A DNA stretch of 39,451 nucleotides from Muribaculaceae bacterium (lineage in GTDB: Bacteria > Bacteroidota > Bacteroidia > Bacteroidales > Muribaculaceae), in the NCBI GenBank assembly GCA_017557625.1, contig JAFYYG010000012.1, positions 1-39,451 on the forward strand, given 5' to 3'. The notes under the pieces were generated by a model that worked only from the letters and a program-made list of their open reading frames with translations, was not told the DNA's origin and ran no database searches. A program made the translations under genes and the position numbers. Position 1 is the first letter of the stretch; the number at the start of each line of letters is the position of its first letter. Below are positions 18,964-39,029 of this stretch, one piece after another.

Positions 18964-19482
18964 ATGAAACAGTTAAGAAGCTTTTTTACAGTTACAATGA
19001 TTGCAGTAATGCTGGTTGGCGCTTTAGATGCCAATGCTAAGACAAAACGCTCTAAAACCAACAAGAGCAAGTCCAAAACCACTAAGACTACCAAAACTCC
19101 CAAAAAGTCGCATCAAAGTGACTATGATCTGGAGTTTTTCCAACAAGTGGCAAAATTTGCCAACATGGAAACTCCCATAGACTGTGGCGAAGGTATTGTT
19201 GTTAAAAGTATTACAATGGAAGGTACTAAATTCTGTTTTAATTACTCAGTAACTGATGATGAGTTATGTGAGATGATCAGGGATTACCCCGACTTGTTTA
19301 CTAGTTTCATGAAATCAGAAGGCATTGTTAAAGATTTGCGCAATGATATGTTTGATGATGACGGGATGCTTGATGCAGTGATACGTTTGGGTATTACGTT
19401 CAACTTCCGAATCTATGCCCAGGGTGAGATGAAACCTCTTCTCGTAATCCCTATCACTGGCAAGGAAATGAAGAATATTTGA
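18964..19482 (+). CDS. Secreted hypothetical protein with Lys/Thr-rich linker
   Basis: 172 aa. A signal peptide ends near residue 25 (DANA-KT). Residues 26-50 are a Lys/Ser/Thr-rich, disordered-looking linker (TKRSKTNKSKSKTTKTTKTP). A globular C-terminal domain of about 120 residues runs to LGITFNFRIYAQGEMKPLLVIPITGKE. This domain is homologous to the C-terminus of the next gene and to the remnant at 18628-18777. The family is unknown to me. It has a consensus promoter and a terminator, so it is expected to be expressed as a single-gene unit in the periplasm or outside the cell. Confidence 0.8.
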   Translation: MKQLRSFFTVTMIAVMLVGALDANAKTKRSKTNKSKSKTTKTTKTPKKSHQSDYDLEFFQQVAKFANMETPIDCGEGIVVKSITMEGTKFCFNYSVTDDELCEMIRDYPDLFTSFMKSEGIVKDLRNDMFDDDGMLDAVIRLGITFNFRIYAQGEMKPLLVIPITGKEMKNI

Positions 19483-19658: not shown

Positions 19659-20531
19659 ATGGAATACTCACTATTAACATTGGTAGATGATAAAGACTTG
19701 GCAATCAAGATATCGGATTACTTGAAGTCTAATGATGTGGATAGCTACGCTGCCCAGCCTATTGAATATGACACTGAGCAGTGGGGTGTGTATGTTGACG
19801 AGTCAAAGGCCGAGACTGCGCAAAGCTTGTTAGATTCATACACAATCACCTCATCGGTTTATAGTCCTGACTATACTCTCGGTAACAAAAATGCCGACAA
19901 TCGCTCAAATGCAATTTTTCCATCTCGTAGGTGTTCACTGGCTGGTTTTTCACAAAGTTGGGGATACTATTTGTTGATGCTCTTTGTGATTGGTAGTGTT
20001 CGCTTTTGTATAAAAATGGATAAGAACAATAATCAGCAAAATGTGAATTATGTTAATGAAATAATTGAACATAATCGTAAAACGCAGGAAATGAGCAGGA
20101 AGTGTACTGAAATAATGAAGAAAAAGATGGAAGATGGTACTTTATTCAACACACCAAAGTCACAGAATATTATCACTATTGAAGATGTCAAGAAGTTTGT
20201 TGAACAAGAAAACAGAAAAAACTCTAAAAAAAATTTAGGTTCAATTACCATAAAGAAGATATCTATGCAGAAGACTAAAATATTTTATGATATTCTTGTG
20301 AATGACGGCTATTTGCTTAAAGATGATGATGAATCAATAAAGAAGCAAATGGCTATGGAAATGGCTTATTCTTTTGATAACTACAAATCAATCGCAGGAG
20401 AAGATATTTTAGACCAATTTGCAAATCTTGGCATCTCGTTTAATTTCAGATTTTATTATAAAGGCGAAAAAGCACCATCTAAAACAATATCTTTGCCTGC
20501 AAGTTATATAAAGACAATAGATAAATCATAG
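19659..20531 (+). CDS. Single-pass membrane protein sharing the C-terminal domain of its neighbour
   Basis: 290 aa. Residues 1-65 (YSLLTLVDDKDLAIKISDYL ... WGVYVDES) resemble the small DUF2007-type domain thought to sense or signal; this is a motif-level guess. A single membrane helix lies at about 106-122 (YYLLMLFVIGSVRFCI). A Lys/Asn-rich coiled segment follows, then a C-terminal domain homologous to the 18964-19482 product (ANLGISFNFRFYYKGEKAP). The gene is more AT-rich and uses more AAA/AAT codons than the flanking housekeeping genes, hinting at separate origin. The function is unknown. Confidence 0.8.
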   Translation: MEYSLLTLVDDKDLAIKISDYLKSNDVDSYAAQPIEYDTEQWGVYVDESKAETAQSLLDSYTITSSVYSPDYTLGNKNADNRSNAIFPSRRCSLAGFSQSWGYYLLMLFVIGSVRFCIKMDKNNNQQNVNYVNEIIEHNRKTQEMSRKCTEIMKKKMEDGTLFNTPKSQNIITIEDVKKFVEQENRKNSKKNLGSITIKKISMQKTKIFYDILVNDGYLLKDDDESIKKQMAMEMAYSFDNYKSIAGEDILDQFANLGISFNFRFYYKGEKAPSKTISLPASYIKTIDKS

Positions 20532-20701: not shown

Positions 20702-21727
20702 ATGAGTGAGACTGAGATTTCTACGTTGGGAGAGTTTGGGTTGATAGAGAATCTTACACGCGATTTTAAGGTAAAGAACACCTCCACTCTGCGGGGAGTG
20801 GGTGATGACTGCGCGGTGCTCGACTATGGCGGCAAGCGCACTCTTGTCACCACCGACCTGCTGCTTGAAGGCATCCATTTCGACCTTACTTACACCCCTC
20901 TCAAGCACTTGGGCTACAAAGCGGTGGCGGTGAACTTGAGCGACATATATGCCATGAACGGCACCCCTCGCCAGATTACTGTGTCGCTGGGAATCTCCAA
21001 GCGTTTCACTGTTGAACACATCAACGAACTCTATGCCGGCATCTATGCGGCATGTGAGAAATATGGCGTTGACCTCGTGGGTGGCGACACCTCGGCATCG
21101 GTCACCGGGCTGCTCATCAGCATCACCTGCATTGGCGAGGCACTAGATGATGAGATTGTATATCGCAGCGGAGCGCGTGACACCGACCTCATATGCGTTA
21201 GCGGTGACCTCGGGGCTGCCTATATGGGCCTCCAGCTCTTAGAGCGTGAGCGAGTGGCGGGAGCTGGGCAGAAGGACTTTCAACCCGACTTCGCTGGGCG
21301 TGAATATCTGCTGGAGCGACAACTCAAACCTGAGCCTCGCGCCGATGTCATCACCGAGCTACGTGAATTAGGCATCAAACCCACTGCCATGATGGACGTG
21401 AGCGACGGACTATCGAGCGAACTGCTGCACATCTGCAAGCAGAGCGGGGTAGGGTGCCGGGTATATGAAGACCGCATCCCCATAGATTACCAGACTGCTG
21501 TCATGGCCGAGGAGCTGAACATGAACCTCGTGACCGCTGCTATGAACGGAGGCGAGGACTACGAGTTGCTCTTCACCGTTCCGCTAACTCAGCACGAGAA
21601 AGTGGAGCAGATGAAGACTGCCCGTCTCATTGGCCGCATCACCAAGCCAGAACTCGGCGCCTATATGGTTGCCCGCGACGATACCGAGCTCGAAATCCGC
21701 GCTCAAGGGTGGAACGCTTTTAATTAA
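20702..21727 (+). CDS. thiL: Thiamine-monophosphate kinase
   Basis: 341 aa. It phosphorylates thiamine monophosphate to thiamine diphosphate, the last step of vitamin B1 cofactor synthesis. Family motifs are GEFGLIENL, GVGDDCAVLDYGG, TTDLLLEGIHFD, AVNLSDIYAMNGTP, VDLVGGDTSAS and, in the C-terminal half, MMDVSDGLSSELLHI and MNGGEDYELLFTVP. These acidic residues bind Mg-ATP in the PurM-like fold. Sequences between the main motifs are ordinary. From memory, Bacteroides genomes often place thiL directly after punA; here about 2.9 kb of hypothetical genes separates them, and thiL has its own promoter. Confidence 0.96.
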   Translation: MSETEISTLGEFGLIENLTRDFKVKNTSTLRGVGDDCAVLDYGGKRTLVTTDLLLEGIHFDLTYTPLKHLGYKAVAVNLSDIYAMNGTPRQITVSLGISKRFTVEHINELYAGIYAACEKYGVDLVGGDTSASVTGLLISITCIGEALDDEIVYRSGARDTDLICVSGDLGAAYMGLQLLERERVAGAGQKDFQPDFAGREYLLERQLKPEPRADVITELRELGIKPTAMMDVSDGLSSELLHICKQSGVGCRVYEDRIPIDYQTAVMAEELNMNLVTAAMNGGEDYELLFTVPLTQHEKVEQMKTARLIGRITKPELGAYMVARDDTELEIRAQGWNAFN

Positions 21728-21807: not shown

Positions 21808-22659
21808 ATGAAGAATTACAAATTTTTATCCGTGATTATGGTGCTGGCGCTGTGCTTTGGTGCTGCGCAGAGTGTTGACGCTAAAAAGAAGAAACACCAC
21901 AAAAGAGCAAAAACAGAGAAAAATCAAACACACAAGAAAAATCGTACAACGGAATTAACTGTAGTTGCAGATGAATTAGTAGAGGTTGTTCCAATAAAAA
22001 ACGAAGTGGCTATAGAGTGCGAAATGGAATGCGATAATGTTTTCATGAGTGCTGCTCACATGCCTGAATTTCCTGGTGGCACTCCCGCATTAATGAATTT
22101 TTTAAGCCAAAACATACGGTATCCTCAAGTAGCTCAAGATAATGGTATTCAAGGAAAAGTTGTTGTGCAGTTTGTTGTTGAAAAAAACGGAAGTGTTGGC
22201 GAAATAAAAGTTGCTCATGGCGTTGACAAAGACCTTGACAAAGAGGCTGTGCGAGTGTGCAAGACTCTGCCAAAATTCAAGCCTGGCCGCAACTCCGATG
22301 GTGACCCTGTGCGCGTGTGGTACACATTGCCAATAACTTTTAAGCTGCAAGGCGTTGATGGTGACACTTATGATGGTCCCACTGGTGATTATGCAAAAGA
22401 CGCCAGGCAGGCTGGTGAAAAAATACTTGAGATTTTGAATAGAGATATCAAGAGTGAAGATGATCTTGAACAGATGGAGAAAGCTATGGATGCGGTTCAA
22501 AAGATATATGAGGATTTCTATCGAGAGAAAGGCGACGAAGAACTGAAGAAATTCAATGATGAACTCAACAAGTTGGAGTATGACCCAGTGCTCGGCAAAA
22601 AGATAGAGGAGGCTATGAATAAATTGCAAGAGAAGATATCCAAACTCTTGAATGAATAA
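21808..22659 (+). CDS. Secreted TonB C-terminal-domain protein with GPTGDY helical module (copy 1)
   Basis: 283 aa. The signal peptide (1-25, ending QSVDA-KK) is followed by a Lys/His-rich linker and a TonB_C domain at about 86-181. Its core reads FPGGTPALMNFLSQNIRYP, NGIQGKVVVQFVV, LDKEAVRVCKTLPKF and WYTLPITFKLQG. Unlike classical TonB it has a cleavable-looking signal instead of a membrane anchor and Pro-rich spacer. After GPTGDY (190-195) comes a roughly 90-residue charged helical module with YEDFYREKGDEEL, also present in copy 3 and in the second kinase. It is probably periplasmic. It begins a cluster with two transmembrane kinases; a terminator-like hairpin separates it from the first kinase. 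Confidence 0.85.
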   Translation: MKNYKFLSVIMVLALCFGAAQSVDAKKKKHHKRAKTEKNQTHKKNRTTELTVVADELVEVVPIKNEVAIECEMECDNVFMSAAHMPEFPGGTPALMNFLSQNIRYPQVAQDNGIQGKVVVQFVVEKNGSVGEIKVAHGVDKDLDKEAVRVCKTLPKFKPGRNSDGDPVRVWYTLPITFKLQGVDGDTYDGPTGDYAKDARQAGEKILEILNRDIKSEDDLEQMEKAMDAVQKIYEDFYREKGDEELKKFNDELNKLEYDPVLGKKIEEAMNKLQEKISKLLNE

Positions 22660-22670
22660 AAGACTTTAGC

Positions 22671-22708
22671 AAAGCCATGTCTCAACACCCCCCCGATTGT
22701 GGCTTTTT
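22671..22708 (+). terminator. Probable terminator
   Basis: AAAGCCA (22671-22677) pairs with TGGCTTT (22700-22706), followed by TT; the loop contains a run of C. Read-through to the kinase is possible. Confidence 0.5.
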
Positions 22709-22786
22709 GTGGGCAATCGAGTTGATAATCCACACTCAAGACAGGATTTTTTATAATGCACAATTTACAATGCAATAATATCAAAA

Positions 22787-24232
22787 ATGGAAACCAAGAA
22801 ACAATACAATTATGTTCTTTCCCAAGGGTTTGTCTTGCGAGGTGGTAAGAGAGACTATGTAGTGGAACAAGTGCTGGGAAAAGGCGGCTTTGGTGTCACC
22901 TACAAGGTGATAGGGCATGTTGATGTTGACAATATCGATTTTGACGCGCCGTTTGCGGTAAAGGAATATTTCCCCGACATATGTAGCCGTGAAGCCGATA
23001 ATGCAACAATCAAAGTGCCTGAGACGAAGCAGCGTGATGTGGCTGAGGGATTGAAGGACTTTGTCAACGAGGCGCGTCGTCTGCAGGAAACATGCAAACT
23101 GAACCACAATATTGTTAATGTAAACGAGGTGTTTGAGGCTAATGGCACTGCTTATTATGTGCTTGAATACTTAGGTGGCGGTGACCTGCGTAAGAGGGTG
23201 AAGGAGTCTCCCGACAAAGCACTTACCGAGCAGCAGATGCTCGAGCTGATGCTGCCAGTGGGTAAGGCCGTTCAGTGTCTGCATGAGAACCATATCCTGC
23301 ACCTTGATATAAAGCCCGACAACATAGTGATGCGCAAGGGGCGGAAAGGTGCTCCCGATGAGCCTGTGCTAATCGACTTTGGACTTGCTACGCATTTCAA
23401 TAATAGCGGCGTGCCAACAAGCATGACCCCGTCGCAAGGCATCAGCGCCGGATATTCACCCATTGAGCAGTATTCGCTACTGCGCCAGTTTGAGCCGCGC
23501 CTTGACGTGTATGCCTTCAGTGCCACATGCCTATACCTGCTCACAGGAAAAGATCCCGCCGAGGCTCTAAGTATGCCGGCTTTTTTCGACGACAGCATAA
23601 TACCCTCCAACGTAAGCGAGAGAGTACGTCAGGCAATCAAGCACGGCATGAGCAAGGAGAAAGACTTCCGCACTCCCACTATAAAGAAGCTTCTTGAAGA
23701 ACTGCAAGGAGAAAAAGGCGAGGAGACCATTCTCATTAATGTGCAATCTGCAAATGTTGTCGATGCGAACAAGACAATTGAATCCCACCGTAAATATCCA
23801 TATGCAGATAATAATTTGAAAGATGAAAAGTCTGATCATCGGTCAATGCAAAATCAGTCTAGAGCAGGAAAGTCAAATAAAAAAGTTGTTAAAAAGAATA
23901 GTATAAAGGCATCAAAGGTTAAGCTGCTGCATCAGGAGATGATGCTGGCGCTCGATCACAAGGCTACGAACAAGACGCTGAAACTTTGGGCTATATCATT
24001 GATATTGTCTATAGTTGGGTTCTTTTTATTAATGTATGCTGTTGCTAAAATTGGTGGGTGTGAAAATAGTGGTTCTGAGCCTAGTAGAGGTTCTGATAGC
24101 ACTGCTTATGAAGAACAGTGGCAACAGCAGTCAGTTCCAGCTTCTTATGCTAGTGAAGAGTACGAGCAGGCTGCAGAAGCAGAGCCTGCTATAGAGTACC
24201 AGTATTCAGAAGAAAAAACTGCCGCCGAATAG
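22787..24232 (+). CDS. Transmembrane Hanks-type Ser/Thr protein kinase (PK1)
   Basis: 481 aa. Cytoplasmic kinase domain at about 24-310: glycine loop GKGGFG (31-36), ATP-binding Lys59 in FAVKEYF, Glu95 in the alphaC helix, catalytic loop HLDIKPDN (Asp174), Mg-binding DFG (197-199) and GYSPIEQY in place of the APE motif. All catalytic residues are present, so it should be active. A Lys-rich juxtamembrane stretch precedes a single membrane helix at about 400-421 (WAISLILSIVGFFLLMYAVA). The outer tail of about 60 residues is Glu/Tyr/Ser-rich (EEYEQAAEAEPAIEYQYSEE) with no folded domain and no PASTA repeats. It lacks the GPTGDY module of the second kinase. It is followed at 51 bp by TonB-like copy 2. 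Confidence 0.93.
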   Translation: METKKQYNYVLSQGFVLRGGKRDYVVEQVLGKGGFGVTYKVIGHVDVDNIDFDAPFAVKEYFPDICSREADNATIKVPETKQRDVAEGLKDFVNEARRLQETCKLNHNIVNVNEVFEANGTAYYVLEYLGGGDLRKRVKESPDKALTEQQMLELMLPVGKAVQCLHENHILHLDIKPDNIVMRKGRKGAPDEPVLIDFGLATHFNNSGVPTSMTPSQGISAGYSPIEQYSLLRQFEPRLDVYAFSATCLYLLTGKDPAEALSMPAFFDDSIIPSNVSERVRQAIKHGMSKEKDFRTPTIKKLLEELQGEKGEETILINVQSANVVDANKTIESHRKYPYADNNLKDEKSDHRSMQNQSRAGKSNKKVVKKNSIKASKVKLLHQEMMLALDHKATNKTLKLWAISLILSIVGFFLLMYAVAKIGGCENSGSEPSRGSDSTAYEEQWQQQSVPASYASEEYEQAAEAEPAIEYQYSEEKTAAE

Positions 24233-24283
24233 AGAGTCTGCAGTGAATAATACTTACTTATTAACTAACAAAATATTAAAACA

Positions 24284-24766
24284 ATGAAGAATTACAAATT
24301 TTTATCCGTGATTATTGTGATGGCGTTGTGTTTAGTCGCAGCGCAGAGTGTTGACGCACAAAAAAAGACTAGAAATCGCAAACGCACTACAAAAACCGAG
24401 AAAAAGCAGACTAAAACAACGCAAGAAAAAGAAGAGGTTTTCAAGAGTGCCGCTCACATGCCATCTTTTCCTGGTGGCGATGCTGCTTTAATGGCGTTTA
24501 TTAACAAGAATATCCATTATCCTCAGAATGCATACGATAATGACATTCAAGGTAAGGTCATAGTGCAGTTTGTCGTGAAAAAGGATGGTAAGATTGGGGA
24601 AGTAAAAGTAGCGCATGGTGTTGACCCCGACCTTGATAACGAAGCGGTGCGCGTGTGCAAATCGTTGCCGGCATTCTCGCCTGGCCGCAATGCCAATGGT
24701 GACCCTGTGAATGTGTGGTACACTTTGCCAATCAATTTTAAACTACATCCAACAGTTGATAAATAA
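24284..24766 (+). CDS. Secreted TonB C-terminal-domain protein (copy 2, short)
   Basis: 160 aa. It has the same signal peptide as copies 1 and 3 (MKNYKFLSVI...QSVDA), then a Lys/Thr-rich linker, then a TonB_C domain at about 58-154 (FPGGDAALMAFINKNIHYP, DIQGKVIVQFVV, WYTLPINFKL). It stops right after the domain, lacking the GPTGDY extension. It may be the minimal form of the family or a shortened copy. It lies between the first kinase and copy 3 with gaps of 51 and 33 bp, consistent with one transcript. No membrane anchor is evident beyond the signal peptide, so it is inferred to be periplasmic. Confidence 0.85.
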   Translation: MKNYKFLSVIIVMALCLVAAQSVDAQKKTRNRKRTTKTEKKQTKTTQEKEEVFKSAAHMPSFPGGDAALMAFINKNIHYPQNAYDNDIQGKVIVQFVVKKDGKIGEVKVAHGVDPDLDNEAVRVCKSLPAFSPGRNANGDPVNVWYTLPINFKLHPTVDK

Positions 24767-24799
24767 TACAAATAGCAGATATTCATTAAAAACAGAAAA

Positions 24800-25705
24800 A
24801 TGAAGAATTACAAATTTTTATCCGTGATAATGGTAATAGCGCTGTGCTTTGGTGCTGCGCAGAGTGTTGACGCTAAAAAGAAAAAAAAACACAGAAGAAC
24901 CCACAAAACAGAGAAAATTCAGCCTACAAAAGAGCAAGTAAAAGAAGGTGAACGAGCAATTGGTGCGAAGGATGATGATGCGCCAATAGTCGACGATGTT
25001 CTAGCACCTGCACTTCAAAAATCCATTGAACCAAAACCAATGCCCAAGCAACGAGATGACGAAGTGTTATGGGGATCGGTTACCAAGCCTATGTTCCCTG
25101 GAGGACAGCAGGCTTTAATGAATTTTATAGCTCAAAACCTGCAGTATCCTGAAGAAGGGCAAGACAATGGCATTCAAGGCAAGGTTGTTGTACAGTTTGT
25201 GATAGAAAAGGATGGTCGTGTTGGTGAAGTGAGAGTTGCTCGTGGCGTTTACCCCGACCTTGATCGTGAGGCTGTGCGTGTGTGCAAGATGCTTCCTAAA
25301 TTCTCACCTGGTCGCGACCACAATGGTAACCCTGTTCGAGTGTGGCACACATTACCTATCATCTTTAAGTTGCAAGGTGCTCACACTGATGATGGCCCTA
25401 CAGGGAACTATGAGGTGGATGCTAAGAAGGCCGCCATTGAGTTAATTAACCTTATGAATAACGCTGATTTATCTGGCATCAAGAGTGCTGAAGACTTCGA
25501 AAAGTGGGAGAAGGAATTCACAAAACAATTAGAAGATATCCAGAAGAAATATGAGGATTTCTACAAAGCGAGAGGCGAGGAAAAACTGGAAAAATTCAGT
25601 GCAGCGCTCAACGCATTGGAGAATGATCCAGAGATTAGCAAAAGACTTGATGAAGCTCAGAGAAATTTAGAAGAAAAAGCAGCAAAACTAATGGAGTTTA
25701 AATGA
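24800..25705 (+). CDS. Secreted TonB C-terminal-domain protein with GPTGNY module (copy 3)
   Basis: 301 aa. Signal peptide 1-25, then a Lys-rich and acidic linker of about 70 residues, then TonB_C at about 97-192 (FPGGQQALMNFIAQNLQYP, GIQGKVVVQFVIEKDG, VWHTLPIIFKLQG). GPTGNY (199-204) opens a C-terminal helical module of about 95 residues with KKYEDFYKARGEEKLEKF. It is closest in layout to copy 1. A hairpin without a T tract (ACATAAAA/TTTTATGT, 25705-25739) follows, and the second kinase begins 76 bp downstream. Likely periplasmic; whether it contacts TonB-dependent receptors or the kinases is unknown. Confidence 0.85.
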   Translation: MKNYKFLSVIMVIALCFGAAQSVDAKKKKKHRRTHKTEKIQPTKEQVKEGERAIGAKDDDAPIVDDVLAPALQKSIEPKPMPKQRDDEVLWGSVTKPMFPGGQQALMNFIAQNLQYPEEGQDNGIQGKVVVQFVIEKDGRVGEVRVARGVYPDLDREAVRVCKMLPKFSPGRDHNGNPVRVWHTLPIIFKLQGAHTDDGPTGNYEVDAKKAAIELINLMNNADLSGIKSAEDFEKWEKEFTKQLEDIQKKYEDFYKARGEEKLEKFSAALNALENDPEISKRLDEAQRNLEEKAAKLMEFK

Positions 25706-25781
25706 CATAAAACTTTTTAGTGGCTTTTGGCTTTTATGTTATAATACACGATAAATAGGTGTCAATAAAGATTAAACAATC

Positions 25782-27251
25782 ATGAGGACAGAACAGATGC
25801 TTAAACCTGGGTATGTGCTTGTTGGTGGCAAGCGCACCTATGTCATTGAGAAAATATTAGGATCTGGCGGCTTTGGCATCACCTACAAGGTGAAGTCGCG
25901 AGTGCAGTTAGACAATATTCTCACCGATGTCTCTTTTGCTGTGAAAGAGTTCTTCCCCGACAGCTGTTGGCGCGGCAGCGACAGCACCACACTGATTGCT
26001 CCGCCAACCAAGCAGCAGGAGGTGGGCAACGGCATTAAGGACTTTGTCAATGAGGCTCTGAGGCTGCAACGAGCTTGCCATCTCAACTCTAACATCGTTA
26101 ACGTGAACGAGGTGTTTAGGGCAAATGGCACCGCCTACTATGTGCTTGAGTATCTGGAAGGTGGCGACTTGCGCAAGATGGTAAGAGACAATGGCGGCAA
26201 TGGGGTTAGCGAGCAGCAGATGCTTAATGTGATGCTCCCCATTGGTCGTGCCTTGCAGTGCTTGCACGACAACAGTATGCTGCATCTCGACATCAAGCCC
26301 GACAATATTGTGATGCGGCGCAACAGTTCTGGTGACGACAACGAGCCGGTGCTTATCGATTTTGGACTCGCCACACACTTTGACAAAAAGGGCGCTCCTA
26401 CCACCAACACGCCCACGAGCGGCATCAGCTCGGGTTACTCGCCAATGGAGCAATATGCTCAAATAAAGCGATTTGACCCGCGTCTCGACGTGTATGCCTT
26501 CAGTGCCACCTGCCTCTACCTCCTTACTGGCAAGGATCCTGACGAGGCGATGTATTTGCCCCCTAATTATGTCAGGGACGTTATCCCATCTGGCGTGAGC
26601 GAGGAGGTGATTTGCGCCATTGAGCGAGGCATGAGCATGAGAAGGGATGAGCGCGTGGCGTCAATGAAAGAGATGCTCGATATGCTAGGCAATGAGAACC
26701 CGCCTGAGATTCAAGACCAGATTCTTGTGCAGCCCTATCAGCAGCAGTCGGCATACTTGCCTGATAATGTCTATACCCAATTGGACAATCGCCCGCGAAG
26801 ATTGCAGCAGCCGACAGCATCGAAATCTTCTAAAAAATCGACTCTTAAGGTTGTGTTCTTATCTTTGGCAATAGCGCTTGGTCTCATTGCAATATCAAGT
26901 CTTGTCTTTTGGGCAATAAATGACAAACCCAAGAAAGAGGTGGTAAAAAAAAGGTCAAAATCTAACCCGAAACCGCAATCAGATGGCCCTACAGGGGACT
27001 ATGAGGAAGATGCAATGGCAATATGTGATAGATTTATTTATCTGGCTTATCGTGTTAAATCACAGGATGACATAAATGACCTGTCAGATGAAATGAGTGA
27101 AATGCTTCAAGAATACGAGAACTATTATCAAGAAAAGGGTGAATATCAAGAATTTGGGAAAGCTTTTGACAATCTTGATGATGATATTAAAACCAAGATG
27201 GAAAAGGCTAAGAAATATGTCTCAGAGAAAGAATCAGAATTCTCACAATAG
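25782..27251 (+). CDS. Transmembrane Hanks-type Ser/Thr kinase with extracytoplasmic GPTGDY module (PK2)
   Basis: 489 aa. Kinase domain at about 20-303: GSGGFG (27-32), Lys54 in FAVKEFF, Glu91, catalytic loop HLDIKPDN (Asp170), DFG (193-195) and GYSPMEQY. It is a close paralogue of the first kinase. One membrane helix lies at about 355-378 (VVFLSLAIALGLIAISSLVFWAI). Outside the membrane, after a Lys-rich stretch, DGPTGDYEEDA (401-411) opens a helical domain of about 85 residues with YENYYQEKGEYQEF. The same module ends TonB-like copies 1 and 3. The shared module suggests that the kinase and the secreted proteins bind the same partner or each other. That is inference; the fusion itself is visible in the sequence. 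Confidence 0.93.
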   Translation: MRTEQMLKPGYVLVGGKRTYVIEKILGSGGFGITYKVKSRVQLDNILTDVSFAVKEFFPDSCWRGSDSTTLIAPPTKQQEVGNGIKDFVNEALRLQRACHLNSNIVNVNEVFRANGTAYYVLEYLEGGDLRKMVRDNGGNGVSEQQMLNVMLPIGRALQCLHDNSMLHLDIKPDNIVMRRNSSGDDNEPVLIDFGLATHFDKKGAPTTNTPTSGISSGYSPMEQYAQIKRFDPRLDVYAFSATCLYLLTGKDPDEAMYLPPNYVRDVIPSGVSEEVICAIERGMSMRRDERVASMKEMLDMLGNENPPEIQDQILVQPYQQQSAYLPDNVYTQLDNRPRRLQQPTASKSSKKSTLKVVFLSLAIALGLIAISSLVFWAINDKPKKEVVKKRSKSNPKPQSDGPTGDYEEDAMAICDRFIYLAYRVKSQDDINDLSDEMSEMLQEYENYYQEKGEYQEFGKAFDNLDDDIKTKMEKAKKYVSEKESEFSQ

Positions 27252-27482: not shown

Positions 27483-27490
27483 TACCTTTG
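27483..27490 (+). promoter_or_regulatory. -7 box of pnp
   Basis: TACCTTTG, exact TAnnTTTG, 44 bp before the ATG. ATAACTG heptamers (27456-27469) precede it. There is no clear -33 TTTG. The rest of the 283-bp spacer after the second kinase shows no gene. Confidence 0.65.
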
Positions 27491-30049: not shown

Positions 30050-31093
30050 ATGAAGAAGATTTTGACTTTTGTGCTGCTGGCTTGCTGCGTGCTTTGTGTT
30101 GATGCTCGCAGGAAATCTGATCGTGAATGTGAGAAAGAGATGGAGGCCGTAATGGCCGATGCTCTGCTGCCGCTGGAGCAGGCATCTAACGACGTGTTTG
30201 AACCAAATAGCACAATGGAGTGGCGCTATGGGTTTGACCATTGCCGCATCAAATCGTTTAATAACGAGCAGGGCGAACCCGACCACCTGGGATTTATGCT
30301 CGAAGACACATGGGAGTGGAACGAAGGCAACAATATCTATAAGGTGAAATTGATTGATGGCAAGCCAGTTGTGATAAACCGACCTGGCTTTACCGCTAGT
30401 CATCTCGTGGCAGGACAATGGGATATAATCGTGTTTCAAGACGAGAAGGAGCAGGTACACGATGTGCTGTTGAAATGCAAGGAGCACAATCCTTATTCAT
30501 ATAAAAAAGAAGAAAACGGCGACATGCAAGACATGTTTGCTGGAGTCTGGGTCAATGACAGCGATGCTGTGACAGAATTTGGTTACATTTTTAAGACAGA
30601 TAACCGATGGAGGCATGTGGCCCCTGGCAATGAATATGAGATAAGGGGATATCGCAATAGAGATGATAACAGCAGACAACTGAAGCTGGTTTTTGTGGAA
30701 GAGCGCGTTAAAGGCGCTGGCAGCGTTATGATGGGTGGCGGCATCAACGGCGGTGGTGGCCATGGCTCACAGCACGGTCCCATCATCTGGTGGATTAAAG
30801 ACACTGAGGGAAATCTCTCTGTGGAACTCGATAAACCCTACGACGAGGAACTCGATGATTACTACTCCAAATTTCGCGACCCACAATTTGCCCTCCAATG
30901 GGTGCGCAGTCCATATTTAGACCGTAACGAACGCTGGACAGTGCTCTCAATGCGTCCCGTTACGCGCGGGATGCTGGAGTTCTTTGACAAAATGTCGCAG
31001 CAGCAGATGCTCAACTATCTCAACACCCGCGAGAATCCAACCGACATCGAAAAACTCAATAAGAGTCTGATAAACACTGTGCTGAATGATTGA
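30050..31093 (+). CDS. Secreted hypothetical protein, paralogue A
   Basis: 347 aa from the ATG at 30050, which starts a good signal peptide (MKKILTFVLLACCVLCVDA). An in-frame start at 30020 would bury that signal and overlap the promoter. The mature protein has an N-terminal region with MADALLPLEQASNDVF and MEWRYG, a glycine-rich segment (MMGGGINGGGGHGSQHGPIIW) and a conserved C-terminal part with FALQWVRSPY, LSMRPVTRGML and NPTDIEKLNKSLINT. The gene immediately downstream encodes a paralogue with the same blocks. I do not recognise a family and see no catalytic motif; it is presumably periplasmic or surface-exposed. Confidence 0.82.
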   Translation: MKKILTFVLLACCVLCVDARRKSDRECEKEMEAVMADALLPLEQASNDVFEPNSTMEWRYGFDHCRIKSFNNEQGEPDHLGFMLEDTWEWNEGNNIYKVKLIDGKPVVINRPGFTASHLVAGQWDIIVFQDEKEQVHDVLLKCKEHNPYSYKKEENGDMQDMFAGVWVNDSDAVTEFGYIFKTDNRWRHVAPGNEYEIRGYRNRDDNSRQLKLVFVEERVKGAGSVMMGGGINGGGGHGSQHGPIIWWIKDTEGNLSVELDKPYDEELDDYYSKFRDPQFALQWVRSPYLDRNERWTVLSMRPVTRGMLEFFDKMSQQQMLNYLNTRENPTDIEKLNKSLINTVLND

Positions 31094-31204: not shown

Positions 31205-32332
31205 ATGAGAAGTTTATTATTACTTGCGTTTGCAGTTTGTGCTATGGTGTCCTTTAATGTTAACGCAACAAAACAGGAGGAGAACGACGCTAAGATTGAG
31301 GCTGTCATGGCCGACGCTAAGCTGAAATTCAAGCAAGGTGACAACGACGTGTTTATGCCCGACAATAATATTGAATGGCGCAATGGTACTCCTTATTGTG
31401 GCGTGGTGAGCTGCTATAACGAGAAAGACGAACCCGACCATGTGGCGTTCCTGCTCGAGGAGTGCGATGATTGGGAAAGCAGTAAGCACTACTATGAGGT
31501 GAAATTGGTGAAGGGCAAGCCAGTGGTTGTCAATCAAAAAGGTGTAACCGTTAAACATGAGGTAGCTGGACGCTGGGACATGCTTGTGTTCCGTAATGCC
31601 GGCGGAGCGGTGCTTGACGTGGTTCTGAGAAAGACCGACAAATATGATGAAGAAGATGCCGCCGACTTGCGCGACATGATTAACGGTGTGTATGCTGGTA
31701 CAGGCAAGAACGCAACCGACACGGTAATGTTTGGCGCTGTGTATGGCGTTGCTAACTCTCGGCTGCCCGGTGAAGACTATAAGTTGGAATATATGGATTA
31801 TAGCGATGGCACACCTAAATTAGTAGATAGGCTTCATGTGGCTTATTTCCCTGAACGTATGAAGCGCGTGCACATGCCTGTACCTTCTCAGAAAGTGGAT
31901 AAGAACGGTGTTACGCACTATTATGCCGACGACAGAGAGATTTCGCGCGACGAATACGAGCACCTGAGATCTATGCCTACTGGTTACAAAGGACATGGCT
32001 CACTGCATGGACCGCTATGGTGGACTGTGAAACCGCAGGGCAATGACCTTGCCGTGGAATTGAAAGAACCGTTCCAAGAGGAACTCGATGCGTTCTATTC
32101 CAACTTCCGCGATGATAAATTCACTTTAAAATGGGTACGCAGCCCTTACAAAGGAATGAAAGACCGTTGGGCGGTGCTCTCGATGCGACCAGTCACTCGC
32201 GGCATGTTGGCCTACTGCGATAAGGCCACCATGCAGCAGATGCTCAAATACCTGAACGCCCGCAAGACTCCCACCGACATTGAGCGTCTTAACAAGAGCC
32301 TTATCAATACAATGGTCAACGGCTCCAAATAG
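31205..32332 (+). CDS. Secreted hypothetical protein, paralogue B
   Basis: 375 aa with a signal peptide (MRSLLLLAFAVCAMVSFNVNA). It aligns over its length with paralogue A: IEAVMADAKLKFKQGDNDVF near the N-terminus, DEPDHVAFLLEE, GHGSLHGPLWW in the middle, and FTLKWVRSPY, LSMRPVTRGMLAY and TPTDIERLNKSLINT at the C-terminus. Conserved GHGSxHGPxxWW and RPVTRGML blocks define the family. It contains an extra insertion of about 30 residues (HMPVPSQKVDKNGVTHYYAD). The pair arose by tandem duplication and is well diverged. The short, repeat-filled spacer suggests co-transcription. The function is unknown. Confidence 0.82.
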   Translation: MRSLLLLAFAVCAMVSFNVNATKQEENDAKIEAVMADAKLKFKQGDNDVFMPDNNIEWRNGTPYCGVVSCYNEKDEPDHVAFLLEECDDWESSKHYYEVKLVKGKPVVVNQKGVTVKHEVAGRWDMLVFRNAGGAVLDVVLRKTDKYDEEDAADLRDMINGVYAGTGKNATDTVMFGAVYGVANSRLPGEDYKLEYMDYSDGTPKLVDRLHVAYFPERMKRVHMPVPSQKVDKNGVTHYYADDREISRDEYEHLRSMPTGYKGHGSLHGPLWWTVKPQGNDLAVELKEPFQEELDAFYSNFRDDKFTLKWVRSPYKGMKDRWAVLSMRPVTRGMLAYCDKATMQQMLKYLNARKTPTDIERLNKSLINTMVNGSK

Positions 32333-37478: not shown

Positions 37479-39029
37479 ATGTTTAAGAGATTTATATCCA
37501 TATTATTTGTGACATTATTTGTCTTTGCAGCAAATTTTGCTAATGCCGAGGAGAGAATAAAGATGACATTAGATGGTGGCGTCTATACAATTCCTTGCGA
37601 GGTGAATGGACTGCGTATGAAATTCATCTTTGATACAGGAGCATCTATGGTTTCTATATCAATGACCGAAGCAAGGTTTATGTATAAAAACGGTTATATT
37701 GATGATGACGATTTTACTGGAACTGCAAAAACTCGTATTGCCAATGGTGATATAGAAGAAAACATGAAACTAACACTGAGGGAAGTAAAGGTTGGCAGCA
37801 AAACAATCCACAATGTTGAAGCACTTGTTTCAAATTCAGCCAATGCCCCTTTGTTGCTCGGACAATCAGTGTTACGTCAGTTAGGCACATGGTCTATAGA
37901 TGGTGATTGTTTTGTAATAAAGGACGGTAGCAATTATGATGACGAAGAAGAGGATGAGGCCTACCCTGATGAGGCTGACAGGCTATACAAATTGGCATTA
38001 CAGTATTTGAATTCTGGGGACAAAAAGAATGCAATTGAATGTTTTAATGAAGCTGCTCAGATTTATTATGACCTAAATGATTTTGAAAATTATTACAACA
38101 TAGCTAAAAAATCAGCTAATCTGGGAAGTTCAGAGGGACAAAACAACCTTGGCTTTTGCTATAATGAAGGGCTTTACGTTTCACAAGATTACAAACAGGC
38201 TGTCTATTGGTACAAAAAAGCAGCCGAACAAGGATACGATTTAGCTCAGTATAATATGGCTCTCCATTATAATAGTGGAGAGGGCGTTACAAAAAATATC
38301 CGGCAAGCTGTCTATTGGTATAAAAAAGCTGCAGTACAAGGATATGATTTAGCGCAGTTTAATTTAGGATTATGTTATTATAACGGAGAAGGTGTTGCTA
38401 AAAACTATGAGCAAGCAGTTTATTGGTATAAGAAAGCTGCAGAGCAAGGATATGCCAGGGCGCAATATAATTTAGGTGTTTGTTATGACAATGGTGATGG
38501 TGTCGCTCAAAGTTACCAGCAGGCAGTCTATTGGTACACAAAAGCTGCAGAGCAAGGACATGCCTCGGCGCAATTTAATTTAGGTCTTTGTTATAAGAAA
38601 GGTGATGGTGTCGCTCAAAGTTACCAGCAGGCAGTCTATTGGTACAAAAAAGCCGCAGAGCAAGGAGATGCTGAGGCGCAATGTAATTTAGGTGTTTGTT
38701 ATTACAATGGTGATGGTGTCGCTCAAAGTTACCAGCAGGCAGTCTATTGGTACAAAAAAGCCGCAGAGCAAGGATATGCCGGGGCTCAATATAATTTAGG
38801 TGTTTGTTATGACAATGGTGATGGTGTCGCTCAAAGTTACCAGCAGGCAGGCTATTGGTTCAAACAAGCTGCAGAGCAAGGACATGCCATGGCGCAATAC
38901 AATTTAGGTGTTTGTTATGACAATGGTGATGGTGTTCCTCAAAGCAAAAAAGAAGCCAAATACTGGTTCAGAAAAGCTGCTGCACAAGGAGACCGTGATG
39001 CTCAAATCATGCTTGAGAAACTGCAATGA
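37479..39029 (+). CDS. Secreted retropepsin-like aspartic protease with eight Sel1 repeats
   Basis: 516 aa. Signal peptide 1-23 (FISILFVTLFVFAANFANA). Residues 30-148 are a clan AA aspartic protease-like domain with the catalytic FIFDTGAS and the later PLLLGQSVLRQLG; such domains work as dimers. A short acidic linker (DDEEEDEAYPDEADR) and a TPR-like pair of helices follow. Residues 218-505 are eight 36-residue Sel1 repeats of the form AxAQYNLGVCYxNGDGVAQS and YQQAVYWYKKAAEQG. The combination of a peptidase with a repeat scaffold suggests processing or binding of a protein partner in the periplasm; the substrate is unknown. It is 25 bp from the preceding gene, but the AT-rich gap could hold a promoter. 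Confidence 0.9.
   Translation: MFKRFISILFVTLFVFAANFANAEERIKMTLDGGVYTIPCEVNGLRMKFIFDTGASMVSISMTEARFMYKNGYIDDDDFTGTAKTRIANGDIEENMKLTLREVKVGSKTIHNVEALVSNSANAPLLLGQSVLRQLGTWSIDGDCFVIKDGSNYDDEEEDEAYPDEADRLYKLALQYLNSGDKKNAIECFNEAAQIYYDLNDFENYYNIAKKSANLGSSEGQNNLGFCYNEGLYVSQDYKQAVYWYKKAAEQGYDLAQYNMALHYNSGEGVTKNIRQAVYWYKKAAVQGYDLAQFNLGLCYYNGEGVAKNYEQAVYWYKKAAEQGYARAQYNLGVCYDNGDGVAQSYQQAVYWYTKAAEQGHASAQFNLGLCYKKGDGVAQSYQQAVYWYKKAAEQGDAEAQCNLGVCYYNGDGVAQSYQQAVYWYKKAAEQGYAGAQYNLGVCYDNGDGVAQSYQQAGYWFKQAAEQGHAMAQYNLGVCYDNGDGVPQSKKEAKYWFRKAAAQGDRDAQIMLEKLQ
38130..38993 (+). repeat. Eight in-frame 108-bp tandem repeats (Sel1)
   Basis: Each unit encodes one 36-residue Sel1 repeat. Units 4-7 (38454-38885) share long nearly identical DNA stretches, for example GTCGCTCAAAGTTACCAGCA, indicating recent duplication or conversion. 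The outer units are more diverged. Confidence 0.9.

Follow-up and report, generated by a model that had tools for sequence, protein, structure and literature searches.

In a 39,451-nucleotide stretch of DNA from a Muribaculaceae bacterium (contig JAFYYG010000012.1 of assembly GCA_017557625.1; hereafter the window), two secreted-looking proteins with a TonB_C domain (T1 and T3) and one transmembrane serine/threonine kinase (K2) end in copies of the same small module, and their genes are interleaved with those of another TonB_C protein (T2) and another kinase (K1). As far as its sequence tells, the module is a helical, periplasmic-looking domain family that is undescribed in the libraries searched. 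K2 would be of a known kind, a membrane Ser/Thr kinase with an exchangeable outer domain, and what appears new is the module family and its sharing. The gene order given by a first-pass annotation of this DNA (TonB_C, kinase, TonB_C, TonB_C, kinase) is borne out by the open reading frames (ORFs) and by Pfam, whose models match all five in that order above their gathering cut-offs. A hydropathy scan finds one N-terminal hydrophobic stretch in each TonB_C protein and one internal stretch in each kinase. The genes and the module copies are as follows.

T1, 21808..22659, + strand: signal-like N-terminus, TonB_C at 22111-22347, module at the C-terminus (22360-22656)
K1, 22787..24232, + strand: Hanks-type Ser/Thr kinase with GKGGFG, FAVKE, HLDIKPDN, and DFG, a transmembrane (TM) segment at residues 402-420, and a module-free tail
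T2, 24284..24766, + strand: signal-like N-terminus and TonB_C, without the module
T3, 24800..25705, + strand: signal-like N-terminus, TonB_C at 25136-25372, C-terminal module
K2, 25782..27251, + strand: Hanks-type Ser/Thr kinase with a TM segment at residues 357-375 (26850-26906) and a C-terminal, presumably periplasmic module
Module copy 1, 22360..22656, + strand: GPTGDY, end of T1
Module copy 2, 25376..25702, + strand: GPTGNY, end of T3
Module copy 3, 26967..27248, + strand: C-terminal domain of K2, four predicted helices

Homology and structure of the module

The first-pass annotation had proposed that two of the TonB_C proteins and the second kinase have a module in common, and had allowed that the kinase copy might fail to align with the others past GPTGDY. 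The homology extends well beyond this motif. Local alignments of the parts that follow it score 184, 92, and 79 in the three pairs of copies, compared with shuffle means of 39, 38, and 36, and none of the 2000 shuffles of the post-motif part made for each pair matched the real score. A model built from 16 foreign modules, from which the alignment columns up to 'DA' had been removed, recovers T1, T3, and K2 alone among the 86 window ORFs of at least 60 residues (E 1.5e-21, 2.9e-20, and 1.4e-14, the last being K2); the next ORF follows at E 2.3, and no module is found by this model in K1 or T2. The 16 modules are the 24 rows of an alignment (A3) minus three window, three own-genome, and two zinc-ribbon rows, and since A3 had been aligned jointly with the window rows beforehand, this control is not fully blind. 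The end of T2 (24752-24766) reads HPTVDK where T1 and T3 run on with GPTGDY or GPTGNY, which may be what is left of a former module or may be chance.

The K2 module is predicted to fold into four helices (mean predicted local distance difference test score, pLDDT, 92.3) and is 30-32% identical to the modules of T1 and T3. Across the 24 aligned copies, which share about 22-38% identity with K2, core columns of G, DA, Y, and F are kept. The data do not support a particularly close relation between the K2 module and those of T1 and T3: in a poorly resolved tree of 35 rows, from which truncated copies of window genes, hits above E 1e-18, domains shorter than 75 residues, and sequences duplicated over their first 80 residues were omitted, K2 sits on a long branch and is not their sister.

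In keeping with the earlier impression that this type of sensor is new, neither Pfam nor NCBIfam holds a family that fits the module, and no description of it or of a kinase-TonB_C protein turned up in the literature searches, which covered open-licence papers. Sequence searches of the PDB with the module profiles give no convincing relative, the best match being the designed miniprotein 7uhb (E 0.0066 with the A2 profile and 0.071 with the A3 profile), with a PSII_Pbs31 protein at E 0.81. A known family to compare is Psb27, the 11 kDa assembly lipoprotein of photosystem II, to which the module may be distantly related, in which case it would, like Psb27, clamp a membrane protein from outside. 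Both are small, four-helical, and partly lipoproteins, with TG[DN]Y..D near the start; Psb27 structures occupy Foldseek ranks 1, 5, 10, and 19 of 43, and the HHalign score is higher than that of every one of 100 column-shuffled controls, in local as in global mode, and, when a smaller alignment is used, than that of each of 60. The direct matches (TIGR03044 to the K2 module at E 0.0086, PF13326 to T1 at E 0.017) nevertheless stay below their cut-offs (16.2 bits vs 117.35, and 15.8 vs 25), and the profile-profile and fold comparisons are below significance. The relationship is therefore kept as a lead only, and a very improbable one.

Occurrence of the module

Six clear copies are present in the host genome: T1, T3, K2, two small proteins with lipobox-like starts (L013 and L014), and a protein in which a zinc ribbon, a TM segment, and the module follow one another (L015). 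Of 101 genomes of the genus, 45 carry the module; at the family level, it occurs in 48 of 397 genomes (6 of 30 genera), and 11 of these 48 lie outside the genus, five of them at E 2e-7 or better and six at 4e-4 or worse. In the order, 4 of 393 genomes match, including the host; the other three matches (E 2.6e-4 to 9.5e-4, two with internal stops) are probably chance. A narrower model finds the module in 7 of 41 relatives, every one within the genus. Among 11 loci from named relatives, a 44-residue match in Nitrospinota (L058, E 3e-4) is likewise probably chance and was dropped from later work. The named relatives with the module are mostly metagenome-assembled genomes from ruminant forestomachs, labelled Muribaculaceae, Bacteroidales, or Prevotellaceae, and the host is apparently of a rumen lineage.

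In most cases, the carrier is a small protein whose start looks, by eye, like a signal peptide or lipobox, and such proteins are often encoded in tandem; some carriers (L093 and L104) hold two module copies. TonB_C-module proteins occur in three genomes, namely the host (T1 and T3) and the relatives G070 and G095. In zinc-ribbon proteins, the module stands behind one TM segment in all five scanned. These two features, the starts of most carriers and the position behind the TM segment, suggest that the module faces outward. By its sequence context, the module looks to be mainly a family of small, lipoprotein-like proteins particular to this lineage.

The kinases and their paralogs

K1 and K2 match PF00069 above its cut-off, with the Gly loop, the VAIK-like Lys, HxDxKPxN, and DFG intact. 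Like the PASTA kinases (PknB, PrkC, and Stk1), they are Hanks-type enzymes with one TM segment and a C-terminal domain beyond it; unlike those, they have no PASTA match and reach 92.3 (K1) and 87.4 (K2) bits with NF033483, compared with a cut-off of 450. A defence function was considered and rejected, the PADLOC matches (best, mad6 at E 4e-38; also PD-T4-6) being read as generic kinase matches, with the NCBIfam MADS6 model at 92-97 bits vs a cut-off of 460.

Twelve matches to K2 at E 1e-20 are found in the host genome, K1 and K2 included. Among the tails of these kinases are TonB_C (L002), SEL1 (L003 and L009), and FGE (L004, L006, and L007), and in all seven paralogs scanned (these six and L008) one TM segment precedes the tail, which is TonB_C, SEL1, FGE, or without family assignment. 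The presence of TonB_C, FGE, or SEL1 behind a single TM segment in close paralogs supports the view that the outer domains are exchangeable. A second kinase-TM-TonB_C protein is encoded in G070 (L147); the contig ends within its kinase part, which a purpose-built model and K2 recognise but Pfam does not. Three domains are joined pairwise, as kinase-module (K2), TonB_C-module (T1, T3, G070, and G095), and kinase-TM-TonB_C (L002 and L147). One further kinase gene in the host genome (L010, 1474-1899) is truncated and retains only some 130 kinase-domain residues. The window also encodes a secreted-looking protein (37479-39029) with an aspartyl-protease domain and Sel1 repeats, part of which are encoded by a 108-base tandem array (38189-38944); two of the kinases above likewise end in SEL1.

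In a kinase tree of 17 rows (L010 and L147, which are cut, and L011 and L012, which are distant, were left out, as were the remoter kinases of the genus except L143), K1, K2, L002, and three FGE kinases form one clade (100/99), in which K1 groups with the FGE kinases (97/97) and K2 lies near L002, the fork there being unresolved. A simple tandem duplication of a TonB_C-kinase pair is not supported, given that K1 and K2 are not sisters and that their outer tails are unlike (713 of 1000 shuffles reach the real score); the different outer domains within this one clade also speak against it.

The TonB_C proteins

T1, T2, and T3 each carry a full TonB_C domain (PF03544, 66-74 bits vs a cut-off of 24.6), as TonB does. 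They depart from TonB in their signal-like N-terminus, in that the ExbD gene adjoins another TonB_C protein elsewhere in the host genome, and, for T1 and T3, in the added C-terminal module. The N-terminal stretch ends in VDA and is followed by a lysine run; by the usual cleavage rule, this start looks like a cleavable signal, but it may instead be an uncleaved anchor. Within the genus, TonB_C proteins occur in all 61 genomes searched; K2-like kinases reach E 1e-20 in 19 of these genomes, counting the host.

These observations could also be accommodated by a scheme centred on TonB, in which TonB_C does the sensing, T1-T3 either report on loaded transporters or rival TonB in binding their TonB boxes, kinases with TonB_C or the module read this state, and the module is no more than an attachment handle. 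TonB_C behind a kinase TM segment in both the host (L002) and G070 would suit such a scheme, as would the signal-like starts of T1-T3, with the ExbD-linked protein lying elsewhere, and the TonB_C genes that follow thiL in the relative G106 and, with the module, in G070 and G095. However, the N-termini could be uncleaved anchors, TonB-box binding is putative, and TonB_C is universal among the 61 genomes, with a K2-like kinase in 19; the scheme is considered unlikely. In the available portion of a paper on TonB/TolA evolution (PMC12204202), the word 'kinase' does not appear.

Comparison with sensing kinases

The outer domains of bacterial kinases bind ligands and promote dimerisation, according to a review (PMC6213207), and a Xanthomonas kinase truncated of its outer domain did not restore function (PMC13147305). 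The nearest worked-out case is PpkA (PMC6082577; likewise in PMC10482370), a kinase of the threonine phosphorylation pathway of type VI secretion. According to PMC6082577, the periplasmic domain of PpkA is bound directly by RtkS, and activation by TagR probably also involves direct contact with the kinase. Like PpkA with TagR (Pseudomonas aeruginosa) or RtkS (Serratia marcescens), K2 has one TM segment, a domain beyond it, and secreted-looking neighbours. Unlike PpkA, for which nothing of the kind is described in the portions of these papers at hand, K2 and its secreted neighbours share a homologous domain. A second difference is that, among the window proteins scanned, no PP2C or FHA protein is recognised beside K1 and K2. 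PpkA-style PP2C and FHA partners occur around other kinases in the genomes G007 and G097. Elsewhere in the host genome, the L011 kinase has an FHA protein beside it, and the L012 kinase a PP2C-like one that scores slightly below the cut-off.

The cluster and its conservation

The five genes are bordered by thiL on the left and pnp on the right.

thiL, 20702..21727, + strand: thiamine-phosphate kinase (TIGR01379, above cut-off), left border
TACCTTTG, 27483..27490, + strand: box upstream of pnp resembling the Bacteroidales -7 element
pnp, from 27535: right border (TIGR03591, above cut-off)

The intergenic gaps from T1 to K2 are 127, 51, 33, and 76 bases. Between 20669 and 27483, the sole plus-strand copy of TANNTTTG, the Bacteroidales -7 consensus, lies inside K2 (26860). 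Both features would fit a single transcript.

The first-pass annotation had counted an unconserved cluster against its own reading, and the comparison largely goes that way: only the pair of thiL and a TonB_C-module gene recurs, in two relatives. G070 and G095, examined on account of their TonB_C-module gene, have that gene directly downstream of thiL, like T1, followed by a convergent ORF and no kinases; in G106, a TonB_C gene without the module lies downstream of thiL. In the thiL-downstream stretches of eight genomes, picked for a close thiL or pnp (two stretches reach only about 4 kb, to a contig end), TonB_C occurs once (G106) and module and kinase not at all, and the pnp-upstream stretches of seven genomes contain no TonB_C, module, or kinase. 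Elsewhere among the genomes listed, thiL and pnp are found on separate contigs or at least 38 kb apart, and contig ends can hide neighbours. From this distribution, it looks as if T1 at thiL is older and K1-T2-T3-K2 were added or rearranged in the host lineage.

Left of thiL, a short gene with a signal-like start (18964-19482) and its neighbour (19659-20531, no Pfam match at E 0.001) encode a common C-terminal domain (local score 106 vs a shuffle mean of 34, reached by 0 of 1000 shuffles). These two genes separate thiL from a purine-nucleoside phosphorylase gene, which adjoins thiL in G070 and G095. On the right, two neighbouring secreted-looking paralogs (30050-31093 and 31205-32332) are 39% identical, with no Pfam or NCBIfam match above cut-off.

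Proposed mechanism and its weighing

The best explanation, put forward tentatively by analogy, is that K2 is an envelope-sensing kinase of the PpkA/TagR type, whose outer domain comes from a pool common to secreted proteins and which T1 and T3, or lipoproteins, regulate. K2 would be a one-pass inner-membrane Ser/Thr kinase with a periplasmic domain from the lineage-specific family of small lipoprotein-like proteins, and T1 and T3 would be soluble periplasmic proteins in which the module is joined to TonB_C. Either these or free module lipoproteins may bind the outer domain of K2, directly or via a shared partner, and such binding would control the dimerisation and activity of K2, as RtkS or TagR does for PpkA, while the TonB_C half would connect that input with TonB-dependent transport or the outer membrane. 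The domains and their sharing, the kinase motifs, the single TM segment, and the varied outer domains on close paralogs are the observed footing of this proposal; export, topology, co-expression, binding, activation, and the signal are presumed. The outward placement expected of the module and the pairwise joining of kinase, module, and TonB_C also speak for it.

The idea of envelope sensing through a common module, as originally suggested, stands in so far as one kinase and two secreted-looking proteins do share a real domain; a homotypic module-module mechanism gains no special support from copies that are 30-32% identical and not sisters.

Several observations count against the proposed regulation of K2. 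The interleaved cluster was found in the host genome only, and K1, in the same cluster, lacks the module. A reading of all 14 genus matches in open frames longer than 205 residues found a kinase-module fusion only in K2, and so in 1 of the 45 module-bearing genus genomes. The K2 module is divergent. The PP2C and FHA partners of PpkA have no recognised counterpart beside K1 or K2 among the window proteins scanned, which are part of the window ORFs. Membrane proteins generally orient by the positive-inside rule, and the linker after the TM segment of K2 is rich in lysine, which makes this rule unhelpful.

Two kinase islands, chosen for their clustered kinases and hence examples rather than a rate, add a further difficulty. 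That of G007 (L138, contig 34, 19500-39000) comprises four kinases, a PP2C protein, two FHA proteins, a caspase-domain protein, and, with signal-like starts, three FGE proteins and a TonB_C protein; one of its proteins is a kinase-FGE fusion (PF03781 at residues 333-559, E 8.7e-50). That of G097 (L144, contig 3, 87500-107000) has four kinases, a PP2C protein, and two FHA proteins, as well as five FGE proteins whose starts are signal-like; one kinase carries the start of an FGE domain, the protein being cut by the stretch end. No TM segment was found in either kinase-FGE protein (top 19-residue hydropathy 0.93 and 1.2, the second protein being cut); the other kinases of these stretches have hydrophobic segments, and none of them matched FGE. 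The FGE domains of the two fusions are thus probably not outside the membrane: kinases and secreted neighbours share the domain, but probably not on the same membrane side, and the islands become weaker parallels to the sharing of an outer domain by K2. These proteins slightly lower the odds of the best explanation and also those of a broader reading. In the latter, envelope kinases and neighbouring secreted proteins would draw their outer domains (module, TonB_C, FGE, and SEL1) from one exchangeable pool, forming matched receptor/ligand cassettes in which domain swapping creates new pairs; it is now judged improbable.

About as likely as the regulation of K2 proposed above is a neutral history, in which the module is a mobile appendage, a lysine/glutamate-rich helical lipoprotein domain attached to the ends of envelope proteins by paralog recombination, with no partnership between its bearers. 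Such a history would be consistent with the commonness of stand-alone, often tandem copies, with a kinase fusion found once in a non-conserved cluster, and with the lack of the module in K1 and T2. It also agrees with the domain common to 18964-19482 and 19659-20531 next door, which indicates that exchange is not kinase-specific, and with the TM-less kinases of G007 and G097, which gained the FGE domain of secreted neighbours in a setting where receptor-ligand pairing is unlikely. Against it stand the module behind a TM segment in two different classes of inner-membrane protein, the G, DA, Y, and F core kept in 24 copies, and the recognisable TonB_C, FGE, and SEL1 domains at the equivalent place in kinase paralogs.

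Implications

The module defines a testable, periplasmic-looking domain family, and three kinds of fusion link Ser/Thr kinases to TonB-type domains. Coupling of a kinase to TonB-dependent transport was not found in the literature searched; if outer domains are indeed drawn from one pool, kinases with TonB_C outside would listen to this transport. If kinases and secreted proteins with matching cassettes truly form pairs, a common domain would provide a rule for predicting the ligands of bacterial Ser/Thr kinase outer domains that so far have no partner.

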